64,000 bases of DNA, from positions 1 to 64,000 of the IMG/VR virus record IMGVR_UViG_3300044707_000140. One strand, given 5' to 3'. Below the pieces are notes generated by a model. It was not told the DNA's origin. It did no database searches and saw only the letters and a list, made by a program, of their open reading frames with translations. Shown here piece by piece: positions 42,458-53,515 of the stretch. The stretch is from a virus. The first letter of the stretch is position 1. Every line of letters starts with the position of its first letter. Both the position numbers and the translations under genes were made by a program.

Positions 42458-42592
42458 GAGGACCGAACCTCGCAGCAATTGGGAGACACCCCAATTCTCA
42501 CCTCTGTAGTTTGAGAAGAGCTCCCCCACTCTGAAGTGGGGGGTATTCTCTCCTCGGTAGTTTATAAGAACAGCGTATAGCTGTATTCTTAT
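42458..42592 (-). other. array of four RNA hairpins downstream of the capsid gene
   Basis: In the 170-base gap after the capsid stop, four stems occur in series: ATAAGAA/TTCTTAT with an inner CAGC/GCTG (42564-42592), CCCCCACT/AGTGGGGG (42523-42542), AATTGGG/CCCAATT (42477-42496) and GAGG/CCTC (42458-42471). Two near-copies of ATTCTCnCCTCnGTAGTTT (plus strand, 42494 and 42545) lie between them. None has a clear U-tract, so I read this as mRNA stabilising or processing structure rather than a simple terminator. Confidence 0.65.
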
Positions 42593-44145
42593 TAGAACTG
42601 TGGAATTTCTTCAATAAGAACTGTACGAGACAAGTCCTCAATGAATACATCACAACGATCCTTCATCCAGATTTCATATCCTGGGAATTTGTTCGCAGAG
42701 CTCATACCCTGAGACTTAGCAAAGCCTAAGTGGTGGCGAGTTCCATCGATATATCCCCAAGTCATAGAAGGTGCACCCTTCATACGAACTTCACGGATGT
42801 TGTTAACCATAGAGCCATCAGACATTGGAGATACGTCGAACACCATGAATACAGGTGTAGACTTCTTGTTCTGTCCAAATTCTAGGTTAGATTGAGGAAG
42901 GTCAAGTTCTTTCAGGTGAATCAGTTCAACACGACCAGTCTCACGAGTTACCATTGCATCGAATGCAAAGTTGTAAGTGATGTGTTGTCCTTCGCCCTGC
43001 AGGTAACGGTTTCCGCTATCAGCTATGAAGCTAAGACCACTGTTCAAAGCGTCTGTCTTCAAAGCTTGTTGGAACACGTCAAAACCTGCTTCGTTAGTAT
43101 ACATTTTAACACGACGGTCTTTAACATCCACACGACGATAGAACAGGTCACCAAACACAGAACGGATCAGGTTGGCAGTAAATTCACCACGGTTGTATTG
43201 AACCAGGTTACCGTTGTTACGCATGCGGTGGTAAACACCAGCAGAAGTACGCTTAAGTTCTTGCTTGCTACCGTTAGTCTTAACAGTACCAGGACGAGAC
43301 CAAATCATACGCTTAACTTTCAACTCAAGCATAGATTTACGCATCCAGAACTCAATAAATGGCTCCCATTTAACATCGTTACGAGTTAAAGGAAGTTGGT
43401 TACGACGCTGAGGTGCATATACAAGGATATCCAAAGGACGTCCTGCAGAGTCACGCATCATTTTGTCATCAGCCCACTCAGTGATTTTGTGCTCAAAACC
43501 ATATGCAGAACCTAAAGATTCAAACATTGTGATTTGCTCACCCAAACGAGGAAGACCTAACAAATCTTGATCGAACTCACCAATTGCAGCATCAACCAAC
43601 TCAAGCTCGATACCTACTTGTAAGAAAGTAGAGCTAACGAAATCTACAGTTGGGTTGTCTGTAACCAAAGTGAAGCTATAAAGGAATCCCATGTTCCAAG
43701 GAATTGGGTCCTTAATAACGTAGAAACGAGGACCATACTGACGGCTACCAACAGAAACGATTGCGTTCTTAGAGAACTCGTTTGTGTCAAGTACCAATTG
43801 GAACTCTTGTCCATCGATACCAGGCTTGCTCAACTCAAGAGTTGAGTTAGGTACATCGATGATTTTGGGGAATTTGTAGGGAACAGCTACTTGCCATTTC
43901 CAAGCATCGCTATTATTATCAATGTAATAAGGCGTGCTTTTGTTGATCATGTCAAGGAAGTCATTGCTGTACAGAGAGCTCTGCGTATAGAGACTGATGA
44001 TCTTCTTGTCGTAATCAGCAGGCTCAGTTGAGTGAAAGCTCTCCAGGTGGTTAGCGTCAGTTAGCTTACCTACAGCACGCTTGTCCATAGAAGCGACACG
44101 AGCATACGTGAAGCCAGTTAGACCTGGGATTGTTTGAATTGCCAT
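42592..44145 (-). CDS. major capsid protein (HK97-fold candidate)
   Basis: 517 residues, close to the usual size of crAss-like major capsid proteins, placed right after the scaffold-like gene and downstream of portal and TerL. The N-terminus IPGLTGFTYARVAS contains a peptide repeated in the cargo-associated protein at 25894. The body has even codon use and mixed alpha/beta segments (GFLYSFTLVTDNPTVDFVSS; WADDKMMRDSAGRPLDILVY) and ends EDLSRTVLIEEIPQF. An unusual hairpin array follows the stop. It should build the icosahedral shell. I do not see a cleaved prohead region within it. Confidence 0.75.
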   Translation of the reverse strand: MAIQTIPGLTGFTYARVASMDKRAVGKLTDANHLESFHSTEPADYDKKIISLYTQSSLYSNDFLDMINKSTPYYIDNNSDAWKWQVAVPYKFPKIIDVPNSTLELSKPGIDGQEFQLVLDTNEFSKNAIVSVGSRQYGPRFYVIKDPIPWNMGFLYSFTLVTDNPTVDFVSSTFLQVGIELELVDAAIGEFDQDLLGLPRLGEQITMFESLGSAYGFEHKITEWADDKMMRDSAGRPLDILVYAPQRRNQLPLTRNDVKWEPFIEFWMRKSMLELKVKRMIWSRPGTVKTNGSKQELKRTSAGVYHRMRNNGNLVQYNRGEFTANLIRSVFGDLFYRRVDVKDRRVKMYTNEAGFDVFQQALKTDALNSGLSFIADSGNRYLQGEGQHITYNFAFDAMVTRETGRVELIHLKELDLPQSNLEFGQNKKSTPVFMVFDVSPMSDGSMVNNIREVRMKGAPSMTWGYIDGTRHHLGFAKSQGMSSANKFPGYEIWMKDRCDVFIEDLSRTVLIEEIPQF

Positions 44146-45595: not shown

Positions 45596-45850
45596 TCACT
45601 TTAATTCTACCCATCTAAAACCAAGTTTCCACAGAAATCTGGCTGTCTTGGAGGACTCTTTACTAACCTTTGTCTCGCTCCAGTCAGGGTGTTTTAAGTG
45701 AAAATGCTCATGTAGGGCGGTGAGTAAATACCTATAACCACTAAGTCTTACATCTAATTCTATCTTGTTCTTATCATCCCAGGCTAGTCCATGAGCTTTT
45801 TCTCTGCCTAGTTTACGATGCTCTACCTTATGTGGGTTTGTTATTTCCAT
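45596..45850 (-). CDS. small HExxH zincin-like protein
   Basis: 84 residues from the ATG at 45850; an upstream in-frame TTG is less likely. Residues 47-51 are HEHFH, followed by LKHPDWSET, so two or three His plus a later acidic residue could bind zinc as in minimal WLM/SprT-like metallopeptidases. The rest is basic (ARFLWKLGFRWVELK at the end). It overlaps the preceding 78-residue gene by 23 bases and sits between portal and scaffold, exactly where many phages place the prohead maturation protease. I infer a candidate maturation peptidase, but its tiny size leaves room for a non-enzymatic zinc protein. Confidence 0.6.
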   Translation of the reverse strand: MEITNPHKVEHRKLGREKAHGLAWDDKNKIELDVRLSGYRYLLTALHEHFHLKHPDWSETKVSKESSKTARFLWKLGFRWVELK

Positions 45851-46064
45851 ATTGACTTGCTTCAAATATTTCTTTAAGAGCCTGATAAGTAATTAATAAT
45901 GACATCTTTTTTATTCCACTCACCATCTCAACCTCTTCTTCAGACAACAAAACAGTGTCCATGTCCTCAACAACACCCATTGCTTGTATACAGGCTGTAA
46001 TGTCCTCATGAGGTGTTGGATCAAACTCCATGATGTCATTATCTAATATCTCGTTGATATCCAT
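45828..46064 (-). CDS. small acidic hypothetical protein
   Basis: 78 residues, overlapping the portal stop by one base. Acidic N-terminal two thirds (ILDNDIMEFDPTPHEDITAC; DMDTVLLSEEEVEMV) and a helical C-terminus (SLLITYQALKEIFEASQYGN). No recognised motif. Translational coupling between portal and the HExxH protein suggests a head-assembly accessory, possibly a partner of the small zincin. Confidence 0.55.
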   Translation of the reverse strand: MDINEILDNDIMEFDPTPHEDITACIQAMGVVEDMDTVLLSEEEVEMVSGIKKMSLLITYQALKEIFEASQYGNNKPT

Positions 46065-48658
46065 TATTCTTTTTTAGGTTTCTTCGCTCTTCCCTTTGCA
46101 TTCTCTTTTGCTATCGCTAAATCATTTGCTTGATTCTCACGAGCCACTTTCAATTTCTCCCTTTCTACAGAAAGTTTTTCAGCAGCTAGTCTATTCTTGG
46201 AATTGATATCAGCCATTTTAGCATCAAACTCTCTACTTGCTTTCGATTGTTCTGCAGCTAACTTGCTGATTTCCAATACATCAGGAGTTCCTGACTCATC
46301 TACATCAGACAGACCCATACCCATAGACTTAGCTTCAGCATTGATTAGGGCAATCTCTTTCTTGTTTATGCGATCAAGCTCGTTCTGGTAGTTATCATTT
46401 GCAATATCCTGCTCTTTCTGTATTTGAGCTTGTTGCATTTGAGCTTGAGCAATTTGAGCCTGTTGATCAGTTTGTTGCTGTTGGATTTGCAATTGTTGCT
46501 GTTGCATTGCATCTTGTTTGTCACGAAGAGTTTTAAATACCTTCTTCATTTCTCTCATAGACTTAGTGCTGTACAGCTCGATCACGTCGTACAGAGATCC
46601 ACCATTCTGCATCAAAGGCTGTGCCAGCTGACGAAGCTCATTGAACATCTGTGTATCCTCAGGACGATTTGTCAAGAACACCTTCAGGTCACGAAACTTT
46701 AAGTCAGAACCATTAACAGAAACAAAAGCTGATTCACCCTCGCTAGTAATATAACTGAGTGTAGACTGAGGCTTCTTAGATTCTACATATAGAGCTGCAT
46801 CAATAATAGCTTGATAGAGCTGACCCATTACATATTCGTGAGCTATAAATAAAGGTTCTGTTTGAGCGTAAGACTGTTGAACAGCTGTGTTTACACCTGT
46901 AGCAGACTCACTGGCTGTAACAGATCCCATACGCTGTCTACTCATCCCCACGAGTTCCCAACATTCGTTCTTTAATTGTTGAGCTAGTGTATAACGAGAT
47001 TGAATTTCCTGTGTACGTGTGAGGTCAATATCTCTAAACTGGTTGAAGCTTGAAGGACTCTTCAAGTTCTCAGGGCTATCGTCAATAAAGACAACACCCC
47101 TGTTTCTTGCTTCTAATTCCCATATATCTAAAGCATCTTGGGCATCACCATCCTTAGGAACAGGAATATGTCTGATGGATGTTAAATACACCTTACCCAC
47201 TTCTTTCTCTAGTAGCTTATAGAGCTGGTTCATACATACGTTGTACAGCACCTGGAAAGGCTTCATCAAATCTACCAGAGATTTAGCTTCTGTGTTCTTC
47301 ACCTCAAAGGTTATACCAATGATAGGACAATAATTAAGAAGCTTAAAAGGTTTAACGTGATAGATGTCTGGACCAATTTTTGTACCCTGATACCACTGGT
47401 TAATCCATCCCCACTCTAACGATTGTTGTGTGGGCATTGTACCACTCTTATAGTTTTCATCTACAAGAACAGATTGCTCGTTACCAAGCTCATCTAAATA
47501 GATGAGTTTACCAATCTTCTTCTTACTTAACCAGTAACAACGAACAACAACATACTTATATCCAAAAGAACTAACATTAGATGTTAATCCTAAGAAGTCT
47601 TTTAGTCCATCATTATTCTCCTTCATTTCTGATTCAATAATCATACGTGTTTGAAGAACAAGAGGATCGAATGTATCATATGTCACTGAGTCAATACCAG
47701 GGACAGCATTGGGATTACCTAGATTAGATTCACGGACGTTAATAAGTCCATAGTCTTGGAGAGAACTTCTTAGATGGTCTATCTCTTCTTTAGTGAGATC
47801 AGGAATGCTTTCAATGATTTCTGAAAGCTCCATAACTTGCACTGTACCAGCGGCATAAGCACCCTGTGCTCTACCTGTAGGGTCAGAAATATACTTCCTA
47901 TCAGGAGTTGTAAGAAACCAAGTGTTCTTTGGGTTAGCCACCTCGATGTTAAAACCGAGCTTTGAGTTGTCTTCATATATATGATAGAATTCTCTTCCAG
48001 AAATTAGCATATCACGAAATGCATCTTCGCTCTTTTCCTTTACATTGAATTCAGCTTTCTGGCATGTAAGCACGTGGTTAGCCCACTTTTCAGCTACAGA
48101 TGTGTAACTGTCTAGGACATCCTGCACATCTTCCATTGTCATTTGTTGCACCTCTTCCTCAGAAAGTTCTTGACCATTCATTGCAGCATTTTCTAGAATT
48201 TGCTGTTTAGCTTTTCCAATAACATATTGCTGAAGAATTTCTGTTTTAAACTCAAGCTCTTCAGACTTACTATCATCATCAAAAGCCTTCACCCTGAATG
48301 TGTCAGGACGCTTGCTTATTTCACCAACCAGTTCATTAACAGGAGTGGTGATGATGGAGTACATCTTAACATAAGCAGGCAATTGTAGATCAGCTGTAAG
48401 TACGTCTGTGAATGAACGCACTTGTGGTTCCTGATAGAAGTCTTCCATCCTCAGGATACCCTTCATTAGGTCATAGTTTTTAACAAACGTGTCACGGTTC
48501 TTTACATACTCAGCATACGCTTTGTTTGCAAAGTAGTCCATGGTGTTTTTAATCCAGCTTTCATCTTGCTTCTCCTTATCTGTCTTAAACTGGTCAGGGA
48601 AGATGTTAAGATAGGCATACCTAATGGTAGCATCTTTGGTATATCTTATAATTGCCAT
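46064..48658 (-). CDS. portal protein
   Basis: 864 residues, starting on the last base of the TerL stop, the classical terminase-portal order. The length and layout fit crAss-like portals: a helical N-terminus (DKEKQDESWIKNTMDYFANK), a central mixed domain, a helical stretch around GMSRQRMGSVTASESATGVN, and a long Gln-rich coiled coil near the C-terminus (MQQQQLQIQQQQTDQQ ... AQIAQAQMQQAQIQKEQ) ending in a basic tail (ENAKGRAKKPKKE). It should form the dodecameric DNA channel at one capsid vertex and bind terminase during packaging. Confidence 0.75.
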   Translation of the reverse strand: MAIIRYTKDATIRYAYLNIFPDQFKTDKEKQDESWIKNTMDYFANKAYAEYVKNRDTFVKNYDLMKGILRMEDFYQEPQVRSFTDVLTADLQLPAYVKMYSIITTPVNELVGEISKRPDTFRVKAFDDDSKSEELEFKTEILQQYVIGKAKQQILENAAMNGQELSEEEVQQMTMEDVQDVLDSYTSVAEKWANHVLTCQKAEFNVKEKSEDAFRDMLISGREFYHIYEDNSKLGFNIEVANPKNTWFLTTPDRKYISDPTGRAQGAYAAGTVQVMELSEIIESIPDLTKEEIDHLRSSLQDYGLINVRESNLGNPNAVPGIDSVTYDTFDPLVLQTRMIIESEMKENNDGLKDFLGLTSNVSSFGYKYVVVRCYWLSKKKIGKLIYLDELGNEQSVLVDENYKSGTMPTQQSLEWGWINQWYQGTKIGPDIYHVKPFKLLNYCPIIGITFEVKNTEAKSLVDLMKPFQVLYNVCMNQLYKLLEKEVGKVYLTSIRHIPVPKDGDAQDALDIWELEARNRGVVFIDDSPENLKSPSSFNQFRDIDLTRTQEIQSRYTLAQQLKNECWELVGMSRQRMGSVTASESATGVNTAVQQSYAQTEPLFIAHEYVMGQLYQAIIDAALYVESKKPQSTLSYITSEGESAFVSVNGSDLKFRDLKVFLTNRPEDTQMFNELRQLAQPLMQNGGSLYDVIELYSTKSMREMKKVFKTLRDKQDAMQQQQLQIQQQQTDQQAQIAQAQMQQAQIQKEQDIANDNYQNELDRINKKEIALINAEAKSMGMGLSDVDESGTPDVLEISKLAAEQSKASREFDAKMADINSKNRLAAEKLSVEREKLKVARENQANDLAIAKENAKGRAKKPKKE

Positions 48659-50682
48659 TATGAGAACAATTTACTTTTTTTCTTTTGGAATAACCCTCTT
48701 GATTCTGTGAACAATTGGTTTTTCTTATTTGGTCTAAAGAATGCTTTTAATCTGTCATCTCCTGATCCTCCCACCTTTCCAAGTATGGGGTCCATTTTAA
48801 GAGCTTGTGCAATAGCTAACTCTGCTGCTACAATACGGTCAAAGTTACCTTGATCGTTATACTGAATAATCTCTTCTAGCAGAACAGGATCAAATATCTT
48901 TGACACACCTAGCACCTCTTTAATGATATCACCATCTTCGTTCTTTTCTTGATACACTACAGCCTCCATATACTTCTTGAGACAGTTGTGCAGATAGTCT
49001 CTTATCTTATCTGCTGAGCGGTGCACCCCATACTCACGCTTTACGGTGGTACCAGGCACCACTTCTTTCAACCACTCAGGTTGTTTTTCGAGGTAGTGTG
49101 CATCTCCTTTTGCTTTCATATATTCTATGAAGGAGATATCATCATTTTCACAGAGCGTTCGTGCATTATAATATTTGATAAGAAGTCTAGCCTGTTCTTC
49201 CCAGGTTTCTTTCTTATCAGGTCTTGCACAATACGAAGCTACGAACATATCTTGGTATTTCTCACCAGTTATGTCGTGCATTCTCTTATAAATATATACA
49301 GAACCCAAAGATGTAGAATAGGCAGCTTGTCCTTGTCTATAAGGGTCAACTCCTGCTACATAGAGTCCGTATGGTGGGTTTTCTAAAGGAAATTCATATA
49401 CAACTACAGGAGCATCCTTCAGATCAGTATTCTTAAGAGGGAAGTTAGTGATGGGTTGTTTGTCTGTAAACTCATGACTTATCTTCTCTCCATCATGGAA
49501 CAATATAACAGGAGTACCTGTGCGTTCTTGACCAATGAGTCTAGCTTTCTGACGTTTAGCTGCCTCAATATCAAATATGTTTGTGTCCTCATTCAGGAAG
49601 ATGTCATCCACTTCCATGGGATAGTACATCTTCTCTTTCAGATAGGCCACTCTATCTCCAGCCTTTTTCAGGCGTTCTAGATTAGATTCTGTAATTTGTT
49701 TAGCCTTCTCCTCATTACTCACCAACATCTTAACGTTGTGAAGATCGCTTCCTTTAGGCTGTTCCAAAAACGCACCAAGCGTACTTTCTTCCTTAGCCTC
49801 CATTCGATATTTATACGAAATAAACAAGCCATGAATACGTTTCTCATCCTTTTCATTATTGTATGTAAGGAAGTTAAAGTTGTCTACATCAAACATTAGA
49901 CTCTTGGCATCCATGAATCTCTTCATATCACCACCAGTCCCAGTAAGAATTGGAGAACACCCCCATCCGTATGGAGTTGTAAAACCTGGCACAGCTGCCT
50001 GAAATCCTCTGAGAAAATTACCCTTACCAATCTCATCAATAATTAGTTTACGTGGTTTGGTACCAGCAATAGCTTCTTCGTTATTACCTTCATCCAAGTT
50101 ACGGATGAGGATCTGGGAGAACGGAATACGCTCTCCTGATTTAGTCTTAATACCTAGGGTGACTTGGTTTTTCCAGTTGTCCTCAACTCTCTGCCATCTC
50201 CATGCTTCAGGCAAAAAGTTAAGGCCCTTGTCCAGCTTATCCGTGATCAGCTTTATATCGGGGGCATTCAACCCAGCGATCACATTCTGGGAATTCTCAT
50301 CAAATGTAGCGCCCCACCCTATGTAAGAAGCCTCTAAAACAGACTTAGCAAAACGTCGAATTCCTAGTATAACTAGTCCTTTCTTGTCTTGTTGAGCCCT
50401 TTCTATTTCGTTTGTTACAATCCACTCATTGTCACGCAATAAGGGATTGGCATATTTCTGTGATATTCTTCCACGCTCATCAATAACATCCACTTCTGTG
50501 TGCCAGATGTTAAGGTGCCAGTAGAGAAAAGGGTTAATGAACACCCCGTTCATCATAGCACCATTTAAGCATATATCTCTATGGAAGTCAAAAAAAGGTT
50601 TGTACTCTGCTGACTGACGATCAGGAATACGCCCCTGGTTTAAATACCAGTCTCTGTAATCTATGCTTTTTATTTCAGTCAT
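48658..50682 (-). CDS. terL: terminase large subunit
   Basis: 674 residues. The ATPase half has a Walker A-like GIRRFAKS with K113, and Walker B KLIIDEIGKG with D216/E217. The nuclease half starts with YVAGVDPYRQG (D446), the first catalytic Asp of the RNase H-like fold, and continues to SGDDRLKAFF near residue 641. Length, motif order and the neighbouring portal gene agree with crAss-like TerL. It packages DNA into the prohead and cuts it. The Walker A departs from GxxxxGK[ST], as is common in terminases. Confidence 0.9.
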   Translation of the reverse strand: MTEIKSIDYRDWYLNQGRIPDRQSAEYKPFFDFHRDICLNGAMMNGVFINPFLYWHLNIWHTEVDVIDERGRISQKYANPLLRDNEWIVTNEIERAQQDKKGLVILGIRRFAKSVLEASYIGWGATFDENSQNVIAGLNAPDIKLITDKLDKGLNFLPEAWRWQRVEDNWKNQVTLGIKTKSGERIPFSQILIRNLDEGNNEEAIAGTKPRKLIIDEIGKGNFLRGFQAAVPGFTTPYGWGCSPILTGTGGDMKRFMDAKSLMFDVDNFNFLTYNNEKDEKRIHGLFISYKYRMEAKEESTLGAFLEQPKGSDLHNVKMLVSNEEKAKQITESNLERLKKAGDRVAYLKEKMYYPMEVDDIFLNEDTNIFDIEAAKRQKARLIGQERTGTPVILFHDGEKISHEFTDKQPITNFPLKNTDLKDAPVVVYEFPLENPPYGLYVAGVDPYRQGQAAYSTSLGSVYIYKRMHDITGEKYQDMFVASYCARPDKKETWEEQARLLIKYYNARTLCENDDISFIEYMKAKGDAHYLEKQPEWLKEVVPGTTVKREYGVHRSADKIRDYLHNCLKKYMEAVVYQEKNEDGDIIKEVLGVSKIFDPVLLEEIIQYNDQGNFDRIVAAELAIAQALKMDPILGKVGGSGDDRLKAFFRPNKKNQLFTESRGLFQKKKSKLFS

Positions 50683-51723: not shown

Positions 51724-52003
51724 CAGGATTCATTTCATCTTCTTGATCTGGTGTTACCAGGGCCAACCACTTTTCTAAAGGGCAAGCACAAGATAGACAC
51801 TTAGTCTTGGCAGCCAGGGTGCATCCACAATGTGTGCAATGATCGTCTGGTCTGACAGTTTTATAGTTCTTTCTGTTTTTGGAGTGGTATTCACATCCAG
51901 CACAGATGGCCAACCTTTCTTCACTCGTTTCCGTTATCTTGCTCCTCAACTTTTTGGGCGGCAGCAGGTTGTTCCTCCACCCCTCGTAAATCTGAGAAAT
52001 CAT
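51713..52003 (-). CDS. small zinc-ribbon protein
   Basis: 96 residues. Cysteines at 34/37 (CAGC), 56/59/61 (CTHCGC) and 69/72/74 (CLSCAC) plus His55/58 form one or two zinc sites; the CACPLEKW ending of this part is characteristic of small phage zinc proteins. It overlaps the end of the IHF-like gene by 83 bases in another frame; I keep this long overlap because the N-terminal stretch YEGWRNNLLPPKKLRSKI looks like part of the protein. It may bind nucleic acid. Confidence 0.6.
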   Translation of the reverse strand: MISQIYEGWRNNLLPPKKLRSKITETSEERLAICAGCEYHSKNRKNYKTVRPDDHCTHCGCTLAAKTKCLSCACPLEKWLALVTPDQEDEMNPDGK

Positions 52004-52373
52004 ATATCCTTGGTTTTAAATCTCTTATGTTGTCAAGGGCTGACTGAAGCTTCATGCTGGCGTTCCTCCTTTTGGCTTCTGGCAGCGCTTCGTCATTTGC
52101 CTTTTTCTCAAACAGGGCCTTTTGGCTTAGAAACTTCTGCATTGTTTTCACCGCCTTCCCATCATTGAAAAAGAACTTCCCAAACCCACTGATTTCCAAG
52201 CTCTTATGCTGAGACATTGCCTCGTTAGCGCTTTGGAACTGGTGGTTGACAACAGCCTCTAGCACCTTCTCACTCATTCTCATTTTCACAGCCATTTTCC
52301 TAATCAGATATTCCTTGACGGAAAGGCTAACAGGCTTATCAGTGAACAAGTCTGATTTCAAGGGTGATGTCAT
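51921..52373 (-). CDS. IHF/HU-like DNA-bending protein
   Basis: 150 residues from the ATG at 52373 (an in-frame TTG two codons upstream is disfavoured). Residues ~15-65 read VKEYLIRKMAVKMRMSEKVL ... VVNHQFQSANEAMSQHK ... SLEISGFGKFFF, matching HU/IHF order: helical N-terminus, then the ISGFGKF strand leading into the DNA-binding arm. The C-terminal ~80 residues are a phage-specific helical extension with an Ala/Gln/Glu tail. crAss-like phages usually carry IHF-like genes; this one may shape DNA for packaging or control the divergent promoter region next door. Confidence 0.75.
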   Translation of the reverse strand: MTSPLKSDLFTDKPVSLSVKEYLIRKMAVKMRMSEKVLEAVVNHQFQSANEAMSQHKSLEISGFGKFFFNDGKAVKTMQKFLSQKALFEKKANDEALPEAKRRNASMKLQSALDNIRDLKPRIYDFSDLRGVEEQPAAAQKVEEQDNGNE

Positions 52374-52683
52374 TATCAAAGTTTAACACGATTTGTGGAT
52401 TCACCTTCACCTTTGTCCCATCCTTCACCAGCACTCCTATCTTCTTCAGCCTAGAAATGATGTTATTTATGGAGGCATTGGTGGTGCCATATCTCTCACA
52501 GAAATCCTTACGTATGTTAGCATAAGAGATGTTACCCCTTACAGCAGCAAAAGCCAGGAGCTGTATTTCTCTCTGTGTTAGCTTCAGATCGTTTACAGCA
52601 GACAATAGGGTGTAATACCTTTCAGCAAGGAGGATGTTATCACTCTCTTGTTTCCTTAGTTTCTGTAATACGACGTTCTTCAT
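52339..52683 (-). CDS. winged-helix DNA-binding protein
   Basis: 114 residues. Residues ~36-95 contain TQREIQLLAFAAVRGNISYA ... NIRKDFCERYGTTNASINNI ... ISRLKKIGVLVKDGTKVKV, the helix-turn-helix plus wing layout of a winged-helix domain. It is the first gene of the long minus-strand late block and lies only 14 bases downstream of a host-type promoter. It overlaps the IHF-like gene by 35 bases. I infer a regulator of late transcription or of the adjacent control region. Confidence 0.65.
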   Translation of the reverse strand: MKNVVLQKLRKQESDNILLAERYYTLLSAVNDLKLTQREIQLLAFAAVRGNISYANIRKDFCERYGTTNASINNIISRLKKIGVLVKDGTKVKVNPQIVLNFDNDITLEIRLVH

Positions 52684-52697
52684 AAATTTAGTTAGTA

Positions 52698-52729
52698 CAA
52701 AGATAGGAACTATTTATAACATATTCAAA
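52698..52729 (-). promoter_or_regulatory. Bacteroidota sigma-A-like late promoter
   Basis: Minus strand: TTTG, 20 bases, TATCTTTG. Both boxes match TTTG and TAnnTTTG exactly. It lies 14 bases before the ATG at 52683 and should begin the whole terminase-portal transcript. Confidence 0.75.
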
Positions 52730-52890
52730 TACAATCTTTTACCCTATTGCTATATTATGTCTTATTTCCCTTATTTCTGTCTACCAGAAGGGGATGAAAA
52801 AGCTTTATATCTAAAGGATGTATAGAATAATAACCCACCCAACCTCCCCAAAGTTACAACATCCTTCAGATAGGTTCCAAATTTATTTTT

Positions 52891-52954
52891 TAGTAAAGCC
52901 ACATCTTGACAAACACCCCCCTATAGTAAAGCTTTAGCTTGACATTCCCCCCTA
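52891..52954 (+). repeat. two adjacent iteron-like direct repeats
   Basis: Unit 1 (52891-52923) and unit 2 (52924-52954) both read TAGTAAAGC, five variable bases, CTTGACA, 2-4 variable bases, CCCCCCTA. A third CCCCCCTA occurs at 52977-52984, giving a 30-31 bp period for the C boxes. They lie in the 52684-53122 non-coding region between the divergent late and early blocks. Confidence 0.8.
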
Positions 52955-52957
52955 CCA

Positions 52958-52973
52958 GGTTTCACGTGAAACA
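52958..52973. promoter_or_regulatory. parS-like partition site
   Basis: GGTTTCACGTGAAACA matches the widespread bacterial parS consensus TGTTTCACGTGAAACA at 15 of 16 positions; 52959-52972 is a perfect 14-bp palindrome. parS is the loading site of the ParB clamp. No ParA or ParB gene is visible in the window, so a host ParB is the likely reader (inference). The site is embedded between the second and third CCCCCCTA boxes. Confidence 0.75.
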
Positions 52974-52996
52974 GGTCCCCCCTAATTTTCTAATAG

Positions 52997-53040
52997 GTTG
53001 GAAATCAATTGTGTGCATGGGAGGGGAGGGTACTTCCAAC
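52997..53040. repeat. inverted repeat enclosing a G-rich tract
   Basis: GTTGGAA (52997-53003) pairs with TTCCAAC (53034-53040) and encloses GGGAGGGGAGGG (53019-53030). The rest of 53041-53122 holds C/G-rich runs and an A-rich leader before the first early gene; no host-type promoter is evident there. Confidence 0.6.
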
Positions 53041-53122
53041 AGCAACCCCTCCTAGGTTTCGAGTGGTCGGGGGCACCCCCCACACTTGAACTCCATTATT
53101 TAACCGCCAAAAAACAAAACAA

Positions 53123-53515
53123 ATGGCAAAAGAAATCAAAGGCCGTGATGTCCTTAACATCAAGACAATCTTAGTGGGAAGACCTTACAATGTAGAAGCT
53201 GGTCATCCTTTAGATGGTAAGACTTACAATCGTTACCAGTTCGATGGTATTGTGTTCACTGTGAACTCAGAAGATGAGTTTGTAAAGTGGAAGAATGATG
53301 GTACACTCTACAGTGCTACATTCACAGAAGGTAAGATGATGGTTGATGTTGATGGTCAACAAGTTGAGCGTAAAACTCTACAATTGACTGGTTGCACTAA
53401 CATCAATCAGGAGAAAGCAATGGCAAGAGCAGAGCGTGAGATTAGTTACTTCCTCACAGAGTTCGATCCTGCAAAAGTGGACGAGAGCTTGCTTGCACAA
53501 TTGCAAACTGCCTAA
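53123..53515 (+). CDS. early hypothetical protein, probably highly expressed
   Basis: 130 residues. Mixed alpha/beta composition: IKTILVGRPYNVEAGHPLDG, YNRYQFDGIVFTVNSEDEFV, then a Thr-rich middle and a helical end (QEKAMARAEREISYFLTEFD). No recognised family. It is the first plus-strand gene after the control region, with an A-rich leader (AAAAAACAAAACAA) and an ideal terminator directly after it, so it forms its own transcription unit. This layout suggests an abundant early protein such as a host-takeover or DNA-binding factor, but nothing confirms it. Confidence 0.65.
   Translation: MAKEIKGRDVLNIKTILVGRPYNVEAGHPLDGKTYNRYQFDGIVFTVNSEDEFVKWKNDGTLYSATFTEGKMMVDVDGQQVERKTLQLTGCTNINQEKAMARAEREISYFLTEFDPAKVDESLLAQLQTA

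Follow-up and report, generated by a model that had tools for sequence, protein, structure and literature searches.

A parS-type site on the genome of a crAss-type phage without detectable partition genes

The locus described here raises the question of what a nearly exact bacterial parS site is doing on a phage genome in which neither ParA nor ParB is detected. The window, i.e. the whole stretch of 64,000 bases analysed, covers positions 1 to 64,000 of a source record of 98,080 bases. This record may be incomplete, because it is shorter than many of its relatives (19 records of 100-118 kb).

The site and its surroundings

The site, GGTTTCACGTGAAACA (52958..52973, without strand), was delimited by a pattern scan and by its recurrence in relatives whose flanking sequences differ. 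It differs from the 16-bp parS consensus TGTTTCACGTGAAACA at one base (15 of 16 positions identical), and its core GTTTCACGTGAAAC (52959-52972) is a perfect 14-bp palindrome identical to the consensus core. A preliminary description of this DNA had claimed both the single deviating base and the palindromic core, and the sequence bears out both. Its figure of 0.0002 occurrences expected per 64 kb is reproduced as 4^-14 × 64,000, i.e. under uniform base composition. The core is present once in the whole 98,080-base record. When up to three mismatches are allowed, the consensus is matched three times in the window versus 0.50 expected, and the other two matches carry three mismatches each.

As had also been described, the site lies in a divergent non-coding region, which from the ORF coordinates measures 439 bases (52684..53122, without strand). 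On its left is the gene of a 114-aa winged-helix (wHTH) protein (52339..52683, minus strand), recognised by its predicted structure and conserved whether or not the site adjoins; on its right is the ORF of a 130-aa protein (53123..53515, plus strand), the first gene of the rightward module. The wHTH gene is followed by that of an HU/IHF-like DNA-binding protein (51921..52373, minus strand; profile match to Bac_DNA_binding).

The iteron-like repeats that had been noted around the site are three copies of CCCCCCTA (52916..52984, plus strand), which begin at 52916, 52947 and 52977 and are thus spaced by 31 and 30 bases. They are probably not part of the parS-like element, because exact copies of CCCCCCTA are absent from the short flanks (30-40 bases) of the more distant carriers of the site. 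TTGACA boxes are found close to the site in this phage. One of them adjoins a second, imperfect dyad, GTAAAGCTTTAGCTTGAC (52926..52943, without strand), which is separate from the parS-like site. This dyad recurs upstream of the wHTH gene in five relatives (L136, L185, L186, L195 and L203), with TGTCAAGTTATAGCTTGACA in some relatives, and is possibly the operator of that gene.

The phage and its gene content

The profile scan covered 95 predicted proteins (94 of 105 ORFs plus one more); ORFs of 2019 and 4308 aa lay outside the scan, and the terminase and the DNA polymerase were profiled separately. The families named here come from partial lists for the 95 proteins, namely the best 25 of 35 for Pfam and the best 25 of 94 for PHROGs. 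Among them are crAss-type capsid, muzzle and ring proteins (PF23898, PF25731, PF24228 and PF25702), by which the phage is classed as crAss-like, as well as a P22-type portal, RecA/UvsX, ribonucleotide reductase and rII-like proteins. A protein of 772 aa that contains a GHKL ATPase domain (L211:7438-9756) is possibly the rIIA-like protein among the 95. No tRNA genes were found in this record.

Among named phages, the closest terminases belong to Leptolyngbya phage Lbo-JY46 (41%) and Cellulophaga phi17:2 (34%); the taxonomy lines of these two phages do not name Crassvirales. The closer of the two (L204, PP438436.1) is recorded on the cyanobacterium Leptolyngbya boryana. A genome-contig search also turned up two terminase relatives (L209 and L210) in MAGs labelled Clostridiales and Lachnospiraceae; these are perhaps misbinned phage contigs.

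A Shine-Dalgarno-like stretch precedes 8 of 86 genes, and promoters of the form TTTG-(18-21)-TANNTTTG occur three times in 27 upstream regions versus 0.04 in shuffled sequences. Low Shine-Dalgarno use, which is not unique to Bacteroidota, and promoters of this kind are both Bacteroidota traits. By these gene-start and promoter traits, a host among the Bacteroidota fits the sequence.

No ParB_N domain was found in the whole source record (G000) by profile search in six frames. HTH_ParB and the tyrosine integrase (PF00589) were each found in none of 24 records and ParA (AAA_31) in none of 15, G000 being included in every case. The earlier remark that no ParB is visible therefore agrees with both ParB profiles, and the search for ParA and ParB beyond the window, across the 98-kb record, detected neither. 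A phage-plasmid with its own ParABS would encode both proteins; in this record, which is perhaps incomplete, neither gene was detected. Proteins with a weak, sub-cutoff ParB_N match, in frames of about 250-270 aa, are present in 4 of 30 records (L205, L206, L207 and L208). They do not track with the site, since a strict site is present in two of these four records and missing from the other two. Profile searches could miss a phage ParB that is very divergent.

Conservation and position of the site among relatives

Relatives were collected with the terminase large subunit (48658..50682, minus strand; profile match) as query, the best 80 of about 500 relatives being taken in each of four overlapping sets. 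The window and 172 fetched loci gave 114 non-duplicate loci, which extend ~10 kb to each side of the terminase gene. In these loci the strict pattern GTTYCACGTGRAAC is matched 35 times, versus 0 for each of 40 permuted palindromes. Of the strict matches, 18 are in the divergent region, 14 in Band-7-type genes and 3 elsewhere. When one mismatch is allowed there are 81 matches (control mean 1.1, maximum 16), of which 24 are a variant in the capsid gene.

Many relatives, both close and distant, have the site in the same region. In 26 representatives that carry it in the divergent region, mean pairwise identity is 33% over the 80 flanking bases versus 88% over the 14-mer, although the latter value is high partly by construction, as the representatives were picked for the site. 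In the locus L002, at 79% DNA identity, all 14 bases are the same and the adjoining bases are changed. That the site is kept while the surrounding DNA changes suggests that the virus may borrow the chromosome-sorting machinery of its host.

Whole records exhibit a similar picture. Among 43 records, the window's own included and some being near copies of one another, 19 have a strict site, and each has exactly one; two strict copies were found in none of the 43. With up to one mismatch, a site is present in 31 of the 43, and only G010 has two. Six of these 31 have the capsid-gene variant only, and one (G011) has its site only inside the terminase gene. The one-mismatch matches are partly noise, because the reversed pattern, used as a control, also has matches in 7 of the 43 records at this threshold. 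The remaining 12 records have no site even with one mismatch, and among the 19 records of at least 100 kb six are siteless in this sense (G009, G012, G020, G032, G037 and G040).

A site with up to one mismatch was likewise found in none of 12 named phages (11 crAss-like or related phages and Leptolyngbya phage Lbo-JY46), and the site is accordingly rejected as a general feature of crAss-like phages. The expectation that relatives would keep the palindrome thus holds for the same region of many of them and fails for the 12 siteless records and the 12 named phages, and the preliminary description drew its circle too wide when it spoke of a hijack in crAss-like phages.

The site is not confined to the divergent region. 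Of 86 loci covering both this region and the portal-capsid interval, 36 have the site in the former, 11 have it between the portal and capsid genes, 39 have it in neither and none has it in both. A phylogeny-aware test of this exclusivity gave 0 independent pairs changing the same way and 2-4 changing in opposite ways, which is too few for significance. In many relatives the portal-capsid position is occupied by a Band-7 (SPFH) gene; in the window, two small ORFs (45596..46064, minus strand) take its place, as judged by comparison with the relatives. The gene at L154:14610-15137 and its homologues are such Band-7/SPFH genes between the portal gene and the next gene.

Within the 114 loci, all 13 Band-7 genes that encode the peptide PGFHVKLP spell the exact parS-type 14-mer, a count that is not based on genes picked for the site. 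A fourteenth GFHVK gene, which encodes PGFHVKIP (L240), does not spell it. Within the site, four of the five codons are invariant in the 13 genes, and the fifth is TTC or TTT, the degenerate motif being variable at that same position. In contrast, only 5 of 82 other columns with an invariant amino acid (other than M or W) are codon-invariant, the genes for this comparison having been picked for the site. Where carriers of a divergent-region site have a Band-7 gene, the peptide at this place is mostly PGFHWRIP or a related one. Both the 40-palindrome control and the 13 of 13 genes indicate that the sequence is kept by selection at the DNA level. The codon-column and flank comparisons agree with such selection, but used loci chosen for the site.

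Further positions are also occupied. Two loci without a Band-7 match (L226 and L229) have the site after the stop codon of a gene in the same stretch, and in G017 it lies inside a gene of 406 aa on the opposite side of the divergent region. A second position within Band-7 genes (L168, L181, L193 and L194) may be a coding coincidence, because L190 keeps the same peptide with other codons.

The variant GTTACACGTGAAAC in the major capsid gene was set aside as evidence. It is found in some relatives and not in this phage, whose capsid gene (42592..44145, minus strand) encodes 517 aa. Although GTTACACGTGAAAC fits the B. subtilis consensus TGTTNCACGTGAAACA, the peptide it encodes is invariant while synonymous codons change freely, and it may be a coincidence of codons. 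The capsid variant and the other sites are largely complementary: of 83 loci, 45 have a site at the divergent or Band-7 position only, 16 in the capsid gene only, one at both and 21 at neither; on the tree, the relation between capsid and other sites is mostly not significant (median p 0.125, range 0.03-1).

In some clades the site has CATGTG or CACATG at its centre, which is a point against an orphan parS. Eight loci (L230, L260, L273, L282, L284, L285, L287 and L293) have GTTCCACATGGAAC, with an altered centre, in the divergent region. This centre possibly reflects a different ParB specificity.

Candidate functions of the site

On these comparisons the site is a selected, host-type parS on a phage without detectable partition genes. 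It resembles bacterial chromosomal parS (ParABS) in its identical core, in 15 of 16 positions overall and in an inner variation (T/C and A/G) that matches the degenerate pattern. It differs in being on a phage genome, usually in one copy, with no ParA or ParB detected in the record. That the site is movable and usually single favours a parS bound by host ParB over an operator. Probably, therefore, it is an orphan parS, i.e. a place on the phage DNA where the chromosomal ParB of the host would load, and the earlier idea of a host hijack is strengthened by the present comparisons.

ParB in general loads onto DNA as a CTP clamp and spreads. Under the orphan parS reading, host ParB would bind the phage site and load and spread there, and host ParA (perhaps also SMC) would then treat the phage genome like an origin region. 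The genome would be positioned on the nucleoid, and copies would reach both daughters during delayed or non-lytic infection. The outcome would be a plasmid-like persistence with neither integrase nor partition genes. The two parts of this reading differ in strength. Binding by host ParB is likely, and its prediction does not depend on the identity of the host, because the ParB orthologs tested are described as sharing parS specificity (PMC7383237). Given binding, the balance tips slightly toward partition or positioning as the selected function. One site might be enough, as a single parS near oriC is reported to suffice, in a source that also gives the B. subtilis consensus (PMC7022226).

The main rival is a ParB decoy, which we regard as rather doubtful: many phage copies would load ParB clamps away from the chromosome and so stall host segregation or division during lytic growth. 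It draws on the same control palindromes and PGFHVKLP genes as the orphan parS. It would also be favoured by the scarcity of host sites, with which many phage copies could compete: at up to two mismatches from the consensus, 1-10 parS are reported in 12 gut genomes, and Bacteroides caecimuris is named among the gut genomes with parS clusters (PMC10197239). The lytic-type functions encoded (rII-like lysis inhibitors, ribonucleotide reductase and RecA/UvsX) and the failure to find a tyrosine integrase are consistent with it as well. A decoy should benefit from several sites, however, and strict sites never exceed one per record.

It is less probable again that the site is transcriptional, with host ParB silencing or insulating the divergent promoters in the way that ParB and KorB act in other systems. 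Its place between divergent genes and near TTGACA boxes in this phage would suit such a role. In P. aeruginosa an inserted parS with ParB is reported to have lowered the expression of adjacent genes, and in S. pneumoniae mutation of one parS to have induced comCDE (PMC7022226). The known host-ParB effects and KorB silencing (PMC11790492) are comparable in that a single site could suffice for a clamp of the ParB family, and differ in that no tie to a promoter holds across the relatives here. Regulation is made less likely by this, as copies in relatives lie inside Band-7 genes, after another gene downstream of the terminase, or in the 406-aa gene. The early/late switch under ParB control that had been proposed as an alternative is weakened for the same reason, i.e. 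some relatives carry the site elsewhere, including inside coding genes.

An operator of a phage-encoded regulator that merely resembles parS is very unlikely. The obvious candidate is the wHTH protein, whose gene adjoins the site and whose structure model gives weak matches to winged-helix proteins (ArsR and T4 MotA among them; best E 0.038). Its helix region, TINNIISKLKK, is kept in relatives both with and without a neighbouring site, from which we infer that the protein is an unlikely binder. A different dyad recurs in the same region of several genomes. The wHTH operator is rejected on account of the sites inside coding genes of some relatives and of the conservation of the helix regardless of the site.

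Still less credence is given to a packaging or replication-origin element coincidentally equal to parS. The site is usually present once per genome and often no more than 8 kb from the terminase gene, a distance to be read against loci that extend only ~10 kb to each side. Its positions vary, as in G017, and the full 16-bp parS is present in unrelated viral contigs. Chance or coding constraint, which may account for the capsid-gene variants, is contradicted for the strict divergent-region and Band-7 sites by the 35 matches versus 0 for 40 controls and by the 13 of 13 PGFHVKLP genes, and has a negligible probability.

The phages P1 and N15 are phage-plasmids or extrachromosomal prophages that encode a partition system of their own and carry the sites belonging to it. 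Some mycobacteriophages are reported to be extrachromosomal prophages with their own ParABS (PMC7157519). The phage studied here is like these in having a centromere-like site on its genome, and unlike them in having a host-type site alone. Use of host ParB by a phage was not reported in the literature searched, which consisted of titles and the beginnings of abstracts, subscription papers and preprints being mostly outside it.

The orphan parS bears on a recognised problem. The crAss-like phages are described as persisting without lysogeny by a mechanism still open, for which a carrier state or episomal pseudolysogeny has been proposed (PMC8375218). With crAss001 the present phage shares crAss-type head and tail genes and the lack of a detected tyrosine integrase; unlike it, crAss001 has no such site at up to one mismatch. 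For the persistence of crAss-like and other integrase-less phages in growing hosts, an orphan parS offers a concrete hypothesis that needs one site. Should this be true, phages would exploit the chromosome segregation of their hosts without contributing any protein, and such a lifestyle would be marked in metagenomes by a lone parS.

Lone sites are not restricted to the relatives of this phage. The exact core was found in at least 120 stretches of a viral collection, which may contain misassigned bacterial fragments, versus 20 and 64 for two palindromes of the same composition, the only two controls used here and threefold apart from each other. The full 16-mer (T..A) is present in 69 of the 120 stretches listed, versus 0 of 20 and 10 of 64 for the controls. 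When eight proteins from the window's clade were compared with the 120 stretches listed, a positive control being included, none of the stretches matched at E 1e-5. It is conceivable, at somewhat less than an even chance, that the orphan parS is a widespread viral strategy, in which the genomes of unrelated tailed phages without ParA or ParB would pass for small chromosomes and be partitioned by host ParB and ParA in non-lytic carriage. The window's clade would be one example, with the site lost and regained at new positions.

Among the stretches listed, 41 belong to records of at least 30 kb, of which 8 have ParB_N. AAA_31 was detected in none of the 33 remaining records; 22 of these have the full 16-mer, and in 18 a copy lies outside ORFs of 100 aa. 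A lone exact core in the fetched stretch, with no ParB_N or AAA_31 detected in the record, is seen at L053:5334, L056:11567, L112:885, L118:11528 and others. A check of 20 proteins in total, drawn from 14 of the 33 records, identified terminase, portal or head proteins in five records (L053, L056, L080, L112 and L118).
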